From positions 1 to 46,941 of the forward strand of contig JAFNVC010000001.1 of the NCBI GenBank assembly GCA_017379935.1: a stretch of DNA of 46,941 nt, given 5' to 3'. Below are positions 22,654-30,324 of this stretch, in pieces. A program made the position numbers and the translations under genes. The stretch is from Clostridia bacterium (GTDB lineage Bacteria; Bacillota; Clostridia; Oscillospirales; Acutalibacteraceae). How positions within the stretch are numbered: the stretch's first letter is position 1; every line of letters starts with the position of its first letter. The notes under the pieces are model-generated. The model was not told the DNA's origin. It worked only from the letters and a program-made list of their open reading frames with translations, and ran no database searches.

Positions 22654-23667
22654 TTATTTGTTACATATTTTTTCGTGATTGATGCTTTTTTCGAGGAATT
22701 CAGCGAGCCTGTCGCCGTGCATACTGAGTGAACAGCCTAGCAGAAGCTTGACATAAGCCATTTCCGCCGTCATATCCGCAATCGGATAAATACCGCCCGA
22801 AAGAGCCGTGCCCGTTGTTTCGTAAGCGTAGGTGTCGGGATTGCAGGGCGCGAGGAAAAGGTCAGCGCCAGCCTCTTTACATCTTTGCGCAAGGTAAAGC
22901 ACCGAGCCAGTACCGCCGTCTGTGCATACGGTTTCGGAATGGTAGGTCGTGTGCAGAGCCGCATCAATGCCGTCGAGTCTGATTGTGCTGTAATCAATGC
23001 CGACATAAGGTGTAATCATCATCACTTTTGCACCGAGCGTGTCAGGAAAACAGCCGTCCGTTTCAAACTCAGCACCCGTAAAATTTGCGTTATCGGCATT
23101 TTTAACAGCTGTCATATCGGCGCTGTAAAAATCGTTGCTGAAATTAGCACACTGCAAAAGATGCGCTCCGAAATGAACGTAAATTTTACCGTCAGAATTC
23201 TGATACACGGCGTAAACGTTCGGCTTTATACCGTTCATAATCAGCTCAACCGCCGCGCGGAAATTGATATTTGCGTTCGTGTTTTCACAGTCAACGGGTG
23301 AGTGGCTCGAAACAAGACAGACGGGCAGACCCTTTTTACCCATAACGAGCGACAGCAGAACGGCCGTATAAGCGAGCGTGTCCGTTCCGTGCAGGATGAT
23401 TATTCCCTTGTAATCATCACTCTTTATATCTCTTAACTCATTAAGAAGAATGTTCCACTTCTCAATGGTCATATTTTCGCTCAGGGTATCAATCGGCATT
23501 CTCGTTTCGAATTCTGTGCCGTTGAAATGGGAGTCACTTTCTCTGAAAGCAGATATAATTTTATATTTTGCATTTTCGCTGTCAACAGCACGCTTGCCGT
23601 CGATGTTCACCGCCGAGCAAATCGTCCCGCCCGTAAGAATTAAAAGAATTTTATCCATATCGTTCAT
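22654..23667 (-). CDS. Type I L-asparaginase family protein
   Basis: The 337-residue cytoplasmic protein has the asparaginase signatures LLILTGGTICS (Thr15) and IILHGTDTLAYTA (Thr95, Asp96), and the C-terminal CKEAGADLFLAPCN region. Type I enzymes use a Thr-Lys-Asp triad. The position that aligns best with the Lys (HVTK-type motif) reads HLLQ here, so the Lys may be replaced by Gln near residue 172. That alignment is by eye. No GatD-type N-terminal domain is present. It is divergent from the AspRS-GatC operon, whose product pathway makes Asn-tRNA. ATG 23667 has GGGACGG upstream. Confidence 0.82.
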   Translation of the reverse strand: MNDMDKILLILTGGTICSAVNIDGKRAVDSENAKYKIISAFRESDSHFNGTEFETRMPIDTLSENMTIEKWNILLNELRDIKSDDYKGIIILHGTDTLAYTAVLLSLVMGKKGLPVCLVSSHSPVDCENTNANINFRAAVELIMNGIKPNVYAVYQNSDGKIYVHFGAHLLQCANFSNDFYSADMTAVKNADNANFTGAEFETDGCFPDTLGAKVMMITPYVGIDYSTIRLDGIDAALHTTYHSETVCTDGGTGSVLYLAQRCKEAGADLFLAPCNPDTYAYETTGTALSGGIYPIADMTAEMAYVKLLLGCSLSMHGDRLAEFLEKSINHEKICNK

Positions 23668-24120: not shown

Positions 24121-26220
24121 ATGTACAGAACTCATCTTTGCAACGAAATCAGAGAAAAGCACATCGGCGAAACTGTCGAGCTTGCAGGCTGGGTTGACGT
24201 TATCCGTGACCACGGCGGCGTTCTCTTCGTTGACCTTCGTGACTACACAGGTATTACACAGGTTGTTGTTCACGATGAGACTCTTCTCAAGGGTATCGGT
24301 AAAGAGACCGTTATTTCCGTCAAGGGTACAGTCACAAAGCGTGACGAAAGCACGGTAAACCCGAAAATCGACACAGGTCTTGTTGAGCTTGTAGCTGACA
24401 CTCTTGTTGTACTCGGCACCTGCACACGCGACCTTCCCTTTGAAATCGGTTCAAACGACACTAACGAGAACATCCGTCTTAAGCACAGATTCCTCGATTT
24501 GAGAAATCCCGCGCTTCATAAGAATATCGTTCTGCGTTCAAATGTTATCAGACATATGCGTAAGGTTATGGAGGAGAAGGGCTTCCTCGAAATGCAGACA
24601 CCTATCCTTACTGCATCATCACCCGAGGGAGCAAGAGACTTCCTTGTTCCGAGCCGTAAGCATCCGGGCAAGTTCTACGCTCTTCCGCAGGCACCTCAGC
24701 AGTTCAAGCAGCTTCTTATGGTATCGGGCTTTGACCGCTACTTCCAGATTGCACCCTGCTTCCGTGACGAGGATGCCCGTGCTGACCGTTCACCCGGTGA
24801 ATTCTATCAGCTCGATTTTGAAATGGCATTTTCAACTCAGGAGGAGGTTCTCAAGGTCTGTGAGGACGTTGTAAGTGACGTTTTCCATACCTTCTCCGAT
24901 AAGTATATCACACCCACTCCGTTCAGATGCATTCCTTACAGAGAGGCTATGGCAAAGTACGGCTCCGATAAGCCCGACCTCCGTAACCCCCTCATCATCT
25001 GCGACCTTACCGATATGTTCAAGCGCGTTAAGTTCAAGCCCTTTATGAACAAGCAGGTAAGAGGTATCGTCGCTCCGTGTAAGAATGAGAGATGGTTCTT
25101 TGACAAGTCACTTGCATTTGCCACAAAGCAGGCAAAGATGGCAGGTCTTGCTCACATCACTCTTCTTGACGAGAAGAACTACGGCTTCAAGGATGACCCG
25201 ATCAGCAAGGTTATGACACCTGACGAGATGAAGGAAATCGTTGAGCTTACAGGCGTTAAGGAGGGCGAGACAATCTTCTTTATCTGTGATAACGATTCTG
25301 ATATCGCCGATAAGAACGCAGGTGTTGTCCGCACATGGCTCGGTAATGAGCTTGAGCTTATTAAAAATGACCGTTTCGAATTCTGCTTCGTTGTCGATTT
25401 CCCGATGTACGAGCGTGACGAAACAACAGATAAGATTATATTCACTCATAACCCGTTCTCAATGCCGCAGGGCGGTCTAGAGGCTCTGCTTACAAAGGAG
25501 CCGACAGAAATCCTTGCATATCAGTATGACCTTGTATGTAACGGTATTGAGCTCGCATCAGGTGCTGTTCGTAACCACAGCCCCGAGATTATGAGAAAGG
25601 CATTCGAAATCGCAGGCTATTCTGAGGAGGAGCTCGAAAAACGCTTCAGCGCACTTTACAACGCATTCCAGTTCGGCGCACCGCCGCACGCAGGTATGGC
25701 ACCCGGTGTTGACCGTATCATTATGCTTCTTGCTGATACGGAAACAATCCGTGATGTTATTGCATTCCCGCTTGACGGTCAGGCTCAGGACCAGATGCTC
25801 GGCGCACCGAGTGAGGTTACAGAGCTTCAGCTTTATGAAGCAAATGTCGCAATCCGCGGCAAGGGCGGCTCGGATATGCTCGGCTCGGATTCGGGCGAGT
25901 CATCCTACTCCGCTTCGAAGGCTTCCAAGCCCGCAGAGGCAAAGGCTAATAAGTTCGAAAGCCTTGAGTCAGTCAACGAGCTGAGCTTCACGGCTGACGA
26001 GAAGAAAAAGATGAATAAGATTCTCGAGGATATGCTCAAAAAAGAAGCGGACCTCGCAAAAACAGATACATCAGCAGTTGAGCCTATGGTATATGTTATG
26101 CCGATGACCAACATCATCCGTAAGGATGAAAGAAGCCAGCCCTTCACACGTGAGGAGCTTCTCGCAGGTGCTCCGCAGAGCACAGAGGACAGCTGGCAGG
26201 TTCCCAGACTTGTAAAGTGA
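24121..26220 (+). CDS. aspS: AspRS-GatC fusion (aspartyl-tRNA synthetase with C-terminal GatC)
   Basis: This 699-residue protein is about 110 longer than a normal bacterial AspRS. Residues 1-580 are AspRS: an OB-fold anticodon domain, class II motif 2 CFRDEDARADRSPGEFYQLD, a GAD domain and motif 3 GMAPGVDRIIMLL. His31 in RDHGG is the residue type reported for non-discriminating AspRS, which charges both tRNA-Asp and tRNA-Asn. A Ser/Ala-rich linker (581-611) leads to a GatC module (612-699): ELSFTADEKKKMNKILEDM, then VEPMVYVMPMTNIIRKDE (from 653), then REELLAGAPQSTEDSWQVPRLVK. The fusion is one open frame with no stop. GGAGG precedes ATG 24121; the frame opens earlier at 24088. gatA and gatB follow. 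Confidence 0.93.
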   Translation: MYRTHLCNEIREKHIGETVELAGWVDVIRDHGGVLFVDLRDYTGITQVVVHDETLLKGIGKETVISVKGTVTKRDESTVNPKIDTGLVELVADTLVVLGTCTRDLPFEIGSNDTNENIRLKHRFLDLRNPALHKNIVLRSNVIRHMRKVMEEKGFLEMQTPILTASSPEGARDFLVPSRKHPGKFYALPQAPQQFKQLLMVSGFDRYFQIAPCFRDEDARADRSPGEFYQLDFEMAFSTQEEVLKVCEDVVSDVFHTFSDKYITPTPFRCIPYREAMAKYGSDKPDLRNPLIICDLTDMFKRVKFKPFMNKQVRGIVAPCKNERWFFDKSLAFATKQAKMAGLAHITLLDEKNYGFKDDPISKVMTPDEMKEIVELTGVKEGETIFFICDNDSDIADKNAGVVRTWLGNELELIKNDRFEFCFVVDFPMYERDETTDKIIFTHNPFSMPQGGLEALLTKEPTEILAYQYDLVCNGIELASGAVRNHSPEIMRKAFEIAGYSEEELEKRFSALYNAFQFGAPPHAGMAPGVDRIIMLLADTETIRDVIAFPLDGQAQDQMLGAPSEVTELQLYEANVAIRGKGGSDMLGSDSGESSYSASKASKPAEAKANKFESLESVNELSFTADEKKKMNKILEDMLKKEADLAKTDTSAVEPMVYVMPMTNIIRKDERSQPFTREELLAGAPQSTEDSWQVPRLVK

Positions 26221-26230
26221 GGTGTTAAAA

Positions 26231-27418
26231 GTGGGATATTTTGTTAATTCAATCAATCCGTCAGGCAAAATTGCCGTTGACGATACAATCCTTATAAAAG
26301 GAACACCTGCTACGGCAGGCTCAAAAATGCTTGAGAATTTCACCCCGCTTTTCAGCGCCGAAGCGGTCGAAAGACTCGAAAAAGCAGGCTACGAAATCGC
26401 AGGCAAGACTAATGTCGGTGAGTTCGGTCTCGACCTTCTCGGTGAGACATCCTTCTTCGGTGCAAACGAAGAGGACGGTGTGCTCGCAGGCGCAGCAGCT
26501 TCACTCGTCAAAAAAGGCGAGGTTAAGGCAGCTCTCAGTGTTGATCTCAACGGCGCACCCCGCCGTGCAGCAGCTCTTGCAGGCGTTGATTTTATCAAGC
26601 CGACCTACGGTACGGTTTCCCGTTACGGTGTTATCGCATGTGCCTGCTCGGGTGAGCAGATCGGCGTTACGGCTCCCGATGCTGAGACAGCAAAGGAAAT
26701 TCTTTCCGTTATCGCAGGTCACGACAGCAAGGACGGCACAAGCCTTCCCGCTGAAAAGTATGATTATGCTCTTACCGATGTCAAGGGTATGAAGGTAGCA
26801 CTTATCAAGGAGCTTTACGACCTCGCTTCCGATGCAGTGAAGACAGGCATTGATAAGTATGCGGCTTCTCTTAAAGCTCTCGGTGTAACTGTTGAAGATG
26901 TATCTCTCGATATCGTAAAGGAAGCACAGACAGCATGGCAGATTCTTATGTCTGCTGAAACAACAAACAACCTTTCCCGCTTCGATGGTGTCAAGTACGG
27001 CCACCGTGCGGCAGAATATAAGAATATCGACGAGCTTTATGTCAAGAGCCGTACAGAGGGCTTCGGCTTCCTCACAAAGGCTACAATCATTTACGGTTCA
27101 GATGTTCTTTCAAAGAGCAAGTACGATGCCTGCTACGATAAGTCAATGCGCATCCGCCGTGTTGTAACAGAGAAGGTAAAGGCAGTTCTTGCTTCATACG
27201 ATGCAATTCTTGCTCCTGCCTGCTCACAGGCTGAGTATAAGGCTTATGACGTTCTCGACAGCTTCGAAAAGGTATTTGAGGAGAGCGTGTTCACAGCAAT
27301 TCCGAGCATCACTGGCTTGCCCGCAATGGCAACTAAGGGTGTTCAGCTTATCGCAGATTCATACAAAGACAATGTTCTTCTGAGCATTGCAAAAAGTGTT
27401 GAAGGATTGGAGGCATAA
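26231..27418 (+). CDS. gatA: GatA-like protein without amidase catalytic triad
   Basis: The 395-residue product aligns along its length with GatA but lacks the N-terminal ~60 residues and is shorter at the C terminus. Aligned with the S. aureus GatA sequence from memory, the catalytic Lys (IKDN) is Asp17 (VDDT), the cis-Ser (GGSSGGS) is Leu85, and the nucleophilic Ser (DTGGSIRQP) is Ala109 (DLNGAPRRA). The 24-residue spacing of the two Ser positions is kept. Structural segments are well conserved: KPTYGTVSRYG, NLSRFDGVKYG, SRTEGFG, SITGLPAM. It should not act as a glutaminase. GTG 26231 with GAGGTG 6 nt upstream is preferred to GTG 26222. It lies between aspS-gatC and gatB. Confidence 0.88.
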   Translation: MGYFVNSINPSGKIAVDDTILIKGTPATAGSKMLENFTPLFSAEAVERLEKAGYEIAGKTNVGEFGLDLLGETSFFGANEEDGVLAGAAASLVKKGEVKAALSVDLNGAPRRAAALAGVDFIKPTYGTVSRYGVIACACSGEQIGVTAPDAETAKEILSVIAGHDSKDGTSLPAEKYDYALTDVKGMKVALIKELYDLASDAVKTGIDKYAASLKALGVTVEDVSLDIVKEAQTAWQILMSAETTNNLSRFDGVKYGHRAAEYKNIDELYVKSRTEGFGFLTKATIIYGSDVLSKSKYDACYDKSMRIRRVVTEKVKAVLASYDAILAPACSQAEYKAYDVLDSFEKVFEESVFTAIPSITGLPAMATKGVQLIADSYKDNVLLSIAKSVEGLEA

Positions 27419-27420
27419 CG

Positions 27421-28830
27421 ATGAAATACGAACTTGTTATCGGTCTTGAAACTCACGTTGAGCTTTCAACCGCTTCAAAGCTTTTCTGCTCCTGCGGCGG
27501 TCATTCCAGCCCGAAGGAGCCCAATGATTGCGTTTGTCCCGCTTGCTGCGGTATGCCGGGTATGCTTCCCGTAACCAACAAGCACGCAATCGAGCTTGCG
27601 GTCAAGGCAGGCTTTATGCTTAACTGTAAAATCAATCAGTATACAACCTTTGATAAGAAGAGCTATTACTATCCCGACCTTCCCGCTTCATACCAGACTA
27701 CGCAGTGGTTCAATCCTATCTGCGTTGACGGCAGCGTAGAAATCGGTGACAGAACAATCGGAATCAAGCAGATTCATCTCGAGGAGGACGCAGGTAAGCT
27801 TGTTCACGATGATGCAACAAACACATCACTCGTTGACTATAACAGAACGAGCGTGCCTCTTATCGAGATTGTCAGCCGTCCTGATTTCCGTTCTGCGGAC
27901 GAGGTTATCACATACCTCAAGAAGCTCAAGTCAAGCCTTCAGTTTGCAGGTATTTCCGAGTGTGAAGAGGGCGCAATGAGATGTGACGTCAATATTTCCG
28001 TCCGTCCTGAGGGCTCAGAGGAGTTCGGTGTCCGTGCTGAAATCAAGAATATGAGCTCACTTTCCGAAATCAAGGATGCAATCGAGTTTGAAAAGGTTCG
28101 TCACGTCGATGCACTCGAGCGTCATACAGAGGTTCTCGTTCAGGAAACACGCCGCTGGGACGATGTCAAGCGCCGTACCTTCCCGATGCGTAACAAGGAG
28201 ACAGCGGCAGATTACCGTTATTTCCCCGACCCGAACCTTATGCCTATTGTTATTGACGATGCATGGCTTGAGGAAATCCGCGCAAGTATGCCTGCAACAG
28301 CAGAGGAGCAGAGCCTCCGCTATACAGAAATGGGTATTCCCGAGAAGGAAGCAATGGTGCTTGCATCTGACAGAAAGCTTTCAGACACATTTGATGAGGT
28401 TGTTGCTCTCGGCAGAGCACCGAAGTCTGTTGCAAGCTGGATTCTTACAGAATGTATGGGCAATATGAAGCGTCTTGAAATTGATGAGCTTAATATTGAC
28501 GCTGCAAAGCTTGCAAGAATTATTGAGCTTGTTGATACAAACGAAATCACCCGTCCTGCAGGTAAGAAGGTTCTTTCTGCTGTATTTGAGAGTGACGTTG
28601 ACGTTGATAAGTACTGCGAGGAGAACGGTCTCAATGTCAAGGTTGACGAGAGTCTCATCCTTACAACTGTTCAGCGCATCGTTGCTGAAAATCCCGATGC
28701 CGTTGCTAACTATAAGAGCGGTAAGACAAAGGCAATGCAGGCTCTTTTCGGTCTGATTATGCGCGAACTCAAGGGAACAGGCGATCCTGTTGTTATCAGA
28801 ACTCTCCTTGAGCAGGAGCTTAATAAATAA
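27421..28830 (+). CDS. gatB: Asp-tRNA(Asn)/Glu-tRNA(Gln) amidotransferase subunit B
   Basis: The 469-residue GatB is complete. ELVIGLETHVEL (metal His), IKQIHLEEDAGKLVHD and NRTSVPLIEIVSRPDF hold the Mg/ATP residues of the kinase site that phosphorylates the misacylated aminoacyl end. A zinc site CSCGG...CVCPACCGMPG is present. The C-terminal YqeY-like helical tail (from about residue 400) binds tRNA. With GatC fused to AspRS and GatA lacking its glutaminase site, GatB is the only apparently active Gat subunit here. GGAGG of its ribosome site lies inside the end of gatA. A strong terminator follows, so it ends the operon. Confidence 0.96.
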   Translation: MKYELVIGLETHVELSTASKLFCSCGGHSSPKEPNDCVCPACCGMPGMLPVTNKHAIELAVKAGFMLNCKINQYTTFDKKSYYYPDLPASYQTTQWFNPICVDGSVEIGDRTIGIKQIHLEEDAGKLVHDDATNTSLVDYNRTSVPLIEIVSRPDFRSADEVITYLKKLKSSLQFAGISECEEGAMRCDVNISVRPEGSEEFGVRAEIKNMSSLSEIKDAIEFEKVRHVDALERHTEVLVQETRRWDDVKRRTFPMRNKETAADYRYFPDPNLMPIVIDDAWLEEIRASMPATAEEQSLRYTEMGIPEKEAMVLASDRKLSDTFDEVVALGRAPKSVASWILTECMGNMKRLEIDELNIDAAKLARIIELVDTNEITRPAGKKVLSAVFESDVDVDKYCEENGLNVKVDESLILTTVQRIVAENPDAVANYKSGKTKAMQALFGLIMRELKGTGDPVVIRTLLEQELNK

Positions 28831-29028: not shown

Positions 29029-30324
29029 ATGGATTTTAAAAACAATGTTATCCGTGCGATTGCTGTTATCGGTATTCTTACACTGGTAACTCTTACAATC
29101 TTACCGGGTTGTAACTTCATCGGTCAGGCTGACCCTGAGGAAAATACAACTCTCAGTGACGACACAACAAATGACGTTGCAGGCGGAGATCAGTTCGAGC
29201 AGTGCTGTCCTATCTGTTCATCAACAGATATTTCGGGACCTGACGCTGAGGGCTATTTCGTATGTAATGCATGCGGTCAGAAGTGGACACAGGACGATTC
29301 ATCAGTTGATATCATCGGTGATGACGGCAGCGTTGTAACACAGCTTGATGCCAACGCAGCTACAAAGCCTATCGTTGTAGGACCTGCAGGTAACGGCGGT
29401 TCATCAAATAACGGCGGTTCATCAAATAACGGTGGGTCATCAAATAACGGTGGCTCAACCAATAATGGCGGTTCATCAAACAATGGTGGCTCTGTAACGC
29501 CGATCGTTCCTCCGACAACTACAACAACCAAGAGCCTTCAGCAGCAGCTTGACGAAATCAAGGATCGCTGGGGCGATGTTATCAAGCCGACAATCGATAA
29601 GGACGGCAACATCACGGTTGAAAGCAAGGACGGCAGTGACACAGGTCTCTTCGGCTTCAAGTACTCAACCAAGGATAAGTGCTTCATCATCGCTGAGGAC
29701 GCTTGGCAGAGAAACTTCGGCTATAACGAGGTTTATGACGCTTCTTCATCTGCAATTGCTATTACATATGACACAATGCGTGTTTACTTTGAGCACGAAG
29801 GTCTCGAGTGGATGATTCAGTACTGGAAGGGTCAGTACGGTATGGTTCTTGTCGGTGCTGAAATCGGTACATACAACCGTCCCGCAGGCTCATCAATGAG
29901 CACACACTACGACTGTGCAACAGACGATATGAAGATGCTTCAGAGTATGGATATTTACAGACGTGAGTCTGAATCTTCAAACAAGTTCAAGTATCTCTTC
30001 TCAAGAAGTCCGGCATTCACATGGTGGTGCGCAGGCTTTGTTCCGGGAACACTCGGTGCAGGTCAGTACAACGTTGATGCTGAAGCAACAGCAATGCTCA
30101 AGGTTGACTCAAAGCTTACTCTTCACTCACCCGAGATGGCTCAGGCGTTTATGCAGGGTCTCAGAGAGGTTAAGACGGTTGAGTATAACGGCGTTTCGAA
30201 GCAGAAGAGAGGCATCACAATGAAGGAGTATGCAACTGTTGAAGAGTACGAAAGCGCAACAGGTGAAGCTCACAAGTTCTGCCTTGAAGAGGACGGCGTA
30301 ACAGTCAGAGTCTGCTGGAGATAA
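29029..30324 (+). CDS. DUF4474 lipoprotein with zinc-ribbon and NGGSS linker
   Basis: The 431-residue product has a hydrophobic leader ending ILPGC (lipobox, Cys28). A possible extracellular zinc ribbon follows (CCPIC...FVCNACGQKW, about residues 59-87), then a Gly/Ser/Asn linker (about 122-155), a Thr-rich stretch and a C-terminal DUF4474 domain. The domain is recognised from LFGFKYSTKDKCFIIAEDAWQRNFGYNEVYD, RVYFEHEGLEWMIQYWKGQYGMVLVGAEIGTYNR and the WCAGFVPG segment. The family is found on the surface of gut Clostridia, and its function is unknown. A small lipoprotein gene follows 12 nt downstream. Confidence 0.85.
   Translation: MDFKNNVIRAIAVIGILTLVTLTILPGCNFIGQADPEENTTLSDDTTNDVAGGDQFEQCCPICSSTDISGPDAEGYFVCNACGQKWTQDDSSVDIIGDDGSVVTQLDANAATKPIVVGPAGNGGSSNNGGSSNNGGSSNNGGSTNNGGSSNNGGSVTPIVPPTTTTTKSLQQQLDEIKDRWGDVIKPTIDKDGNITVESKDGSDTGLFGFKYSTKDKCFIIAEDAWQRNFGYNEVYDASSSAIAITYDTMRVYFEHEGLEWMIQYWKGQYGMVLVGAEIGTYNRPAGSSMSTHYDCATDDMKMLQSMDIYRRESESSNKFKYLFSRSPAFTWWCAGFVPGTLGAGQYNVDAEATAMLKVDSKLTLHSPEMAQAFMQGLREVKTVEYNGVSKQKRGITMKEYATVEEYESATGEAHKFCLEEDGVTVRVCWR
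29392..29493 (+). repeat. 18-bp tandem repeat encoding NGGSSN
   Basis: Five full units and one partial unit of an 18-bp sequence of the form AAC GGC GGT TCA TCA AAT, with third-base and one Ser-to-Thr variation. They encode the flexible linker of the DUF4474 lipoprotein. Copy number may vary between strains. Confidence 0.95.

Follow-up and report, generated by a model that had tools for sequence, protein, structure and literature searches.

A GatA-like protein without the amidase catalytic residues is maintained between aspS-gatC and gatB in Clostridia

The GatCAB amidotransferase normally couples a glutaminase to transamidation, and the glutaminase of GatA is treated as half of this coupled machine. 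What, then, is the role of a GatA-like protein that has lost its catalytic residues but is still encoded among the genes of its usual partners, and from where would such a complex take its ammonia? This question is raised by a locus in the window, by which we mean the whole analyzed stretch of 46,941 nucleotides from a Clostridia bacterium. A first-pass annotation had described the gene as a GatA paralogue kept as a pseudo-glutaminase, perhaps a scaffold or an ammonia conduit. The following features define the locus.

26231..27418, + strand: pseudo-GatA open reading frame, 395 amino acids (Pfam Amidase, 2e-54; TIGR00132; alignments to 3h0l, 2df4 and 3al0)
26219..26224, + strand: GAGGTG, resembling a ribosome-binding site, which precedes the GTG start and overlaps the stop of aspS-gatC
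24121..26220, + strand: AspRS fused to a C-terminal GatC domain (GatC approximately 25957-26217; Pfam tRNA-synt_2, GAD and GatC above cut-off)
27421..28830, + strand: GatB, 469 amino acids (three NCBIfam GatB models above cut-off)

The pseudo-gatA frame begins with GTG at 26231, is open throughout and ends with TAA at 27416-27418, flanked by the aspS-gatC fusion (end 26220) and gatB (start 27421); this is the intact frame with a ribosome site that the annotation had claimed. By sequence, the product belongs to the amidase-signature family (PF01425, 2e-54). It scores 267 bits against the TIGR00132 gatA equivalog, below the cut-off of 481, and its best solved relatives are the GatA chains 3h0l_A, 2df4_A and 3al0_A (phmmer, E <1e-60). 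The segments NLSRFDGVKYG and SRTEGFG, which the annotation had named as part of the GatA-like remainder, are both found in the protein. Further downstream, the window encodes at 29029-30324, after gatB, a predicted lipoprotein-like protein with a GGSSNN-type repeat linker.

The catalytic and substrate-binding positions are listed below, with residue counts from an alignment of 67 carrier genomes.

26279..26281, + strand: Asp17 codon, at the position of the catalytic Lys (D 62, E 3, gap 2; n=67)
26483..26485, + strand: Leu85 codon, at the position of the cis-Ser (L 57, I 6, gap 4; n=67)
26555..26557, + strand: Ala109 codon, at the position of the nucleophile (A 42, S 16, T 6, Y 2, F 1; n=67)
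26936..26938, + strand: Trp236 codon, at the position of Tyr309 of S. aureus (W 64, Y 3; n=67)
27083..27085, + strand: Thr285 codon, at the position of the Arg that binds the Gln carboxylate (Arg in 0/67)
27284..27286, + strand: Ser352 codon, at the position of the Asp that recognizes the Gln amide (Asp in 0/67)

In the phmmer alignment with the three GatA chains, D17, L85 and A109 fall on the amidase Lys, cis-Ser and nucleophilic Ser, and the segment from L85 to A109 is ungapped, which keeps the 24-residue spacing of the serine pair; both statements of the annotation therefore hold. No intact triad is visible elsewhere in pseudo-GatA in the alignment to solved GatA chains, where the GGSSGG segment aligns with DGVLAG. 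The extent of the loss proved larger than had been described, as the protein also lacks the Gln-binding residues, is shorter by about 60 residues at the N terminus, and has neither the NPWD..VPGG loop nor one of the C-terminal loops. The positions aligned with W236, T285 and S352 are those that we take to be Tyr309, Arg358 and Asp425 of S. aureus GatA. In yeast GatFAB, the roles of Gln-carboxylate Arg and Gln-amide Asp are assigned to R334 and D418, and the triad is S154-cisS130-K52 (PMC4027206). Judged by its sequence, pseudo-GatA thus fails the defining catalytic features of GatA and should not be named an active GatA.

The term paralogue stands only in part. A PF01425 search of the window's own genome (G000; 1.84 Mb, 84.84% complete) gave pseudo-GatA as its single match. 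At this completeness, the gene is therefore no second copy next to an active GatA, and the term does not apply there. It does apply to 19 of the 67 carriers, which encode an active GatA as well. One of the loci (L095:2795-9818) shows dead and live genes in tandem, with pseudo-GatA and GatB followed immediately by a complete canonical gatC-gatA-gatB set and then by the asparaginase-fold gene.

Homologues were collected from three sources: the 60 nearest genomes, including the window's own, with 15 carriers; 394 genomes of the order, with 17 carriers at 403 bits or more; and named genomes represented by at least 44 loci (L081-L124), which by title are metagenome-assembled genomes (MAGs) or uncultured isolates, mostly from ruminant gut. 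The 15 carriers and 57 further genomes, less five duplicates, make up the 67-carrier set; as it was drawn from among the matches listed, carriers number at least 67, and there are probably more. Pseudo-GatA was seen in at least 16 genus groups. Across the set, each of the 65 rows that could be scored at the Lys position has an acid there, and every scorable row has Leu or Ile at the cis-Ser position, while the nucleophile position is Ala in 42 of the 67, Ser in 16, and Ser or Thr in 22. Among 65 distinct canonical GatA controls, the same positions hold Lys in 64, cis-Ser in 64, the nucleophilic Ser in 65, Arg in 65 and Asp in 63. The recurrence of the same kinds of replacement across 67 genomes, set against these 65 canonical proteins, takes the loss of the active site far beyond chance. 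Several replacements are conserved in their own right (an acid at 17, N107, R112, W236 and N246), which points to a new fixed structure rather than to drift.

The gene is kept by purifying selection. Of 12 pairs compared by the Nei-Gojobori method, 11 had a finite dS for pseudo-GatA. Their dN/dS lies between 0.063 and 0.167, and the values are imprecise as many dS values exceed 1. In the same pairs, GatB gave 0.028-0.083 (one pair again without a finite dS) and AspRS 0.036-0.081, the latter without the pair L091-L096, since the L096 sequence is a different synthetase. Pseudo-GatA thus evolves faster than its two partners, at ratios still far below 1. The frame is uninterrupted in 65 of the 67 genomes, one of which (G047) has a gene that runs off its contig. 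The two exceptions are G163, with one in-frame TAG that could be an assembly error, and G447, where the gene is broken near codon 95 and an active GatA is also present. A decaying pseudogene is ruled out by the frames, the dN/dS values and the uniform substitutions, these two genes apart, and the proposal of a maintained pseudo-glutaminase, with Lys and cis-Ser gone from every scorable row, is supported: interrupted frames are confined to 2 of 67, and dN/dS stays far below 1.

AspRS and GatC form a single chain in the window and in many relatives, and two chains in others. All 45 distinct AspRS proteins linked to pseudo-GatA have the His of the RDHG motif in the anticodon-binding domain, and the second, housekeeping AspRS of the window's genome (L059) has Leu at this RDxG position; four AspRS proteins linked to active GatA have His (two) or Met (two). 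His is a mark of non-discriminating and Leu of discriminating AspRS. This His/Leu determinant is not stated in the available portions of PMC4206432 or PMC6523644. The linked AspRS is putatively specific for tRNA(Asn). In addition, L096 and the genomes G021, G023, G025, G044 and G453 encode, close to genes for GatA or pseudo-GatA, an AsnRS/AspRS-like synthetase of 440-470 amino acids that scores about 200-255 bits against TIGR00457 and is perhaps an archaeal-type non-discriminating AspRS.

In GatB, the residues of the ATP/Mg and zinc-type sites (E10, H12, E121, E122, E149, N191, S193 and four Cys) are present in all 63 distinct partner proteins. A position at which these proteins differ from canonical GatB is residue 89, presumably the equivalent of the Lys88 channel gate of S. 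aureus GatB.

27685..27687, + strand: GatB Ala89 codon, a small residue (partners C 37, A 20, N 3, S 2, G 1; n=63)

Canonical GatB proteins have Gln in 32, Lys in 26 and Cys in one of 59 cases at this position, that is, Lys or Gln in 58/59.

To what end is the operon kept? AsnRS (TIGR00457 over cut-off) is encoded by 9 of the 67 carriers compared with 29 of 45 non-carrier relatives (Fisher 3.7e-8, with the genomes taken as independent though they are related). Active GatA is present in 19 carriers, in 18 over cut-off and in G046 as two contig pieces. Profile searches found neither enzyme in 42 of the 67, referred to below as sole-route carriers; each such absence is uncertain, because the carriers are MAGs or uncultured as far as their titles tell. 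Seven of the 42 are listed as at least 90% complete (G213, G093, G126, G338, G189, G180 and G163, the last with the TAG), and completeness is given for few of the genomes reached through loci. As neither enzyme was found in these 42 carriers, the complex is probably working and needed there. The pseudo-GatA operon is likely to be their sole maker of Asn-tRNA(Asn), which would mean that the ammonia is not made by GatA. GlnRS passes its cut-off in 59 of the 67 carriers, and G222 and G467 are the only two of the 42 sole-route carriers without it, which leaves 40 that have the enzyme. A role in making Gln-tRNA is therefore unlikely, and most sole-route carriers need an enzyme for Asn-tRNA rather than for Gln-tRNA. 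Asparagine synthetase B (asnB) was not found over cut-off in the window's genome, at 84.84% completeness. In the nine carriers with AsnRS and the 19 with active GatA, pseudo-GatA must be redundant or otherwise employed.

In three carrier loci, a tRNA(Asn) gene precedes the operon, at a distance of less than 1 kb from aspS in L104 and L117 and of 2.7 kb in L083; this is weak evidence, because tRNA(Asn) is also nearby in L158, with a canonical GatA, and in L068, which is asparaginase-like. The tRNA-Asn genes of L104 and L117 have U1-A72. The tRNA-Asn(GTT) at L083:5-80 has G1-C72 in the one copy of genome G431 that was examined, and neither AsnRS nor active GatA was found in G431. Bacterial GatCAB requires a U1-A72 pair in tRNA(Asn), according to PMC4206432. 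At the gathering score, the window has no match to T-boxes or to any other Rfam family, and no T-box was found at the operon in nine other loci; a single T-box in L096 lies downstream, away from the operon. A gene for an AlaX/C-terminal-AlaRS-like protein of about 385 amino acids often follows gatB or the asparaginase-fold gene (L045, L046, L047, L050, L051, L086-L088, L094, L096, L099, L110 and L111; two proteins were scanned), and this putative tRNA-editing protein might clear Asp-tRNA(Asn) or another mischarged tRNA.

Taken together, these results are probably best explained by an Asp-tRNA(Asn) amidotransferase of GatC, GatA and GatB that still works, in which the dead GatA has a structural part and the ammonia comes from outside GatA. 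The dedicated AspRS, here fused to GatC, would charge tRNA(Asn) with Asp, and GatB would activate Asp-tRNA(Asn) with ATP and then amidate it with ammonia. This ammonia would not derive from glutamine cleaved by GatA, but would enter from the ammonium pool or from a linked asparaginase-fold protein. Pseudo-GatA would join GatB and GatC, and may still line the ammonia path. We infer that the three proteins form a complex, with pseudo-GatA in the scaffold or conduit role that the annotation had suggested, and that one of these external sources serves the amidation. The use of external ammonia is chemically plausible, because yeast GatFAB with an impaired glutaminase still uses ammonium chloride (PMC4027206). 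Several points count against this explanation: the interruption of the gene in 2 of 67 genomes, its faster evolution relative to GatB and AspRS, the carriers that do have AsnRS (nine) or active GatA (19), the uncertainty of each absence in MAGs, the usual coupling of glutaminase and transamidation in GatCAB, and the RDHG His in two of the four AspRS proteins linked to active GatA.

A candidate for the ammonia donor is encoded on the other side of the aspS-gatC gene.

22654..23658, - strand: asparaginase-fold protein, 334 amino acids, divergent from the operon (Pfam Asparaginase, 1.7e-26)

The models for GatD (97 bits) and type I asparaginase (96 bits) score this protein almost equally, and it falls far short of either cut-off; the GatD structure 1zq1 is among its best solved relatives. 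The GatD N-terminal domain is absent, residue 2 of the window protein aligning with position 76 of the GatD model. The protein belongs to a subfamily whose 27 members keep the GGT and HGTD motifs, but have Gln in place of the catalytic Lys in 27/27, which makes ordinary hydrolysis doubtful; three ordinary asparaginases in the same alignment retain the Lys. All 27 also have a new Hxx[YF]HSxT motif in place of the usual glycine-rich loop. A wider asparaginase-like clade (10 alignment rows; L068-L074 and L213-L215), with LSEN and mostly YHxxT-type motifs, likewise lacks the catalytic Lys and occurs also in non-carriers.

The subfamily was traced with a profile (A1) built from six proteins found adjoining pseudo-GatA, three of which are in the order sample. 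At score limits set after the scores had been seen (280 bits for the 67 carriers, 318 bits for the order sample), it matches 11 of 17 carriers and none of 377 other genomes among the 394 of the order, with a next best score of 222; without the profile's own rows, the figures are 8/14 and 0/377. Among the 60 nearest relatives, 8 of the 15 carriers and 0/45 others give a strong match, or 2/9 and 0/45 if the six rows are removed. Within the 67-carrier set, the subfamily is present in 27 genomes; in 23 of them, no more than about 5 kb separates it from pseudo-gatA (17 of 21 without the six). The placement of the 23 varies: 14 are downstream, five codirectional upstream, three divergent upstream and one convergent. 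Sole-route carriers have the protein in 25 of 42 cases, against 2 of 25 for the other carriers (p 2.5e-5, a value inflated by relatedness), and without the six in 19/36 against 2/25 (p 3e-4). An independent-pairs test for relatedness yielded five pairs, on average 1.3 in the same direction and 0.1 in the other, and was not significant.

These distributions bear on two versions of the ammonia supply. A GatD-like role is suggested for the asparaginase-fold protein, which would free ammonia from Gln, Asn or another amide and hand it to GatB within a complex in which pseudo-GatA is only an adaptor; the role is doubtful as the catalytic Lys is missing. This special case of the favored explanation is possible but rather unlikely. 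Its strengths are the restriction of the subfamily to carriers in the order sample, its adjacency to pseudo-gatA in four arrangements, its concentration in sole-route genomes and the relationship to 1zq1. Its weaknesses are the Gln at the catalytic Lys position throughout the subfamily, the missing GatD N-terminal domain, the relatedness-corrected test with its five pairs and no significance, and the 17 of 42 sole-route carriers in which the subfamily was not found. Free ammonium is the simplest source for these 17, and a scheme in which GatB takes ammonium directly in the ammonia-rich rumen or hindgut, the asparaginase-fold protein having another job, is a serious contender, even if we would not call it probable. 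Inspection by eye of 10 loci without the subfamily revealed no common alternative glutaminase adjoining the operon, although one neighbor in L113 resembles an Ntn-type amide hydrolase. The acidic residue at the Lys position (65/65 scorable rows) could attract NH4+, and the presumed channel gate of GatB carries a small residue in 63/63 partners. However, direct use of ammonium leaves unexplained why, in the samples searched, the asparaginase subfamily is restricted to carriers and adjoins their pseudo-gatA.

There are two further readings, and we regard both as improbable. The complex could be inactive or regulatory, with Asn-tRNA made by an AsnRS that was missed or lies in unassembled DNA. The genomes are indeed incomplete (84.84% for the window's own) and nine carriers do have AsnRS, but 42 of 67 show neither enzyme, including the seven listed as at least 90% complete, the same model finds AsnRS in 29/45 non-carriers, and the catalytic residues of GatB are fully conserved; this makes the reading very unlikely. 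Even less credit is due to the idea that pseudo-GatA still hydrolyzes amides, by means of other catalytic residues or on another substrate. The newly conserved residues would fit such an enzyme, as would the 22 carriers whose nucleophile position holds Ser or Thr, yet the Lys and cis-Ser occur in none of the scorable rows, the nucleophile position is Ala in 42/67, and no carrier retains the Arg or the Asp that bind Gln.

If the favored explanation of a structural, catalytically dead GatA in a working amidotransferase holds, the coupling would prove dispensable in a natural lineage that has given up the GatA glutaminase and yet apparently needs the complex to make Asn-tRNA. Such a lineage would also offer a natural system in which to study GatB and ammonia entry, and would tie a step of translation to ammonia in the environment or to a new partner that donates it. 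For annotation, it cautions that a GatA-like gene in gut genomes can encode a dead enzyme. Within the scope of the literature consulted (titles and abstract openings, with subscription papers mostly outside it), no catalytically dead GatA in Asn-tRNA synthesis was found.

Compared with canonical GatCAB, the system shares the joint encoding of AspRS, GatC, a GatA-like protein and GatB, the intact catalytic residues of GatB and the expected role in Asn-tRNA synthesis. It differs in the altered position 89 of GatB and in its GatA-like subunit, which has neither the triad nor the Arg and Asp that bind Gln and is shorter by about 60 residues at the N terminus and by two loops. A second AspRS that serves tRNA(Asn) alongside the amidotransferase has a parallel in Deinococcus-Thermus (PMC4206432); unlike here, that second AspRS is archaeal-type, and the part of the paper available mentions no loss of GatA catalysis. 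Truncated forms of yeast mitochondrial GatFAB, whose glutaminase is reduced, continue to transamidate with ammonium chloride, and do so at an increased level (PMC4027206), but in contrast to the natural pseudo-GatA these mutants are laboratory-made and their GatA triad is intact.

The closest comparison with a two-protein system is archaeal GatDE, in which GatD supplies ammonia to GatE. GatDE is now found in archaea only (PMC9499178). As in GatDE, an asparaginase-fold protein is tied, here by genome context alone, to a transamidase of the GatB/GatE family. Unlike GatDE, the present system is bacterial, retains GatC and a GatA-like subunit, lacks the GatD N-terminal domain, carries the Lys-to-Gln replacement and is expected to act on Asp-tRNA(Asn) instead of Glu-tRNA(Gln). 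The likeness depends on whether the asparaginase-fold protein is indeed the one that donates the ammonia. Should it be, the operon would represent a third kind of tRNA-dependent amidotransferase, a proposal that we put forward tentatively and think unlikely to hold in full: a bacterial GatCAB with a dead GatA as adaptor and an asparaginase-fold ammonia donor with a rebuilt site (Lys to Gln, Hxx[YF]HSxT), convergent with archaeal GatDE, which would be the only source of Asn-tRNA(Asn) in many gut Clostridia and in some perhaps their only means of asparagine synthesis.
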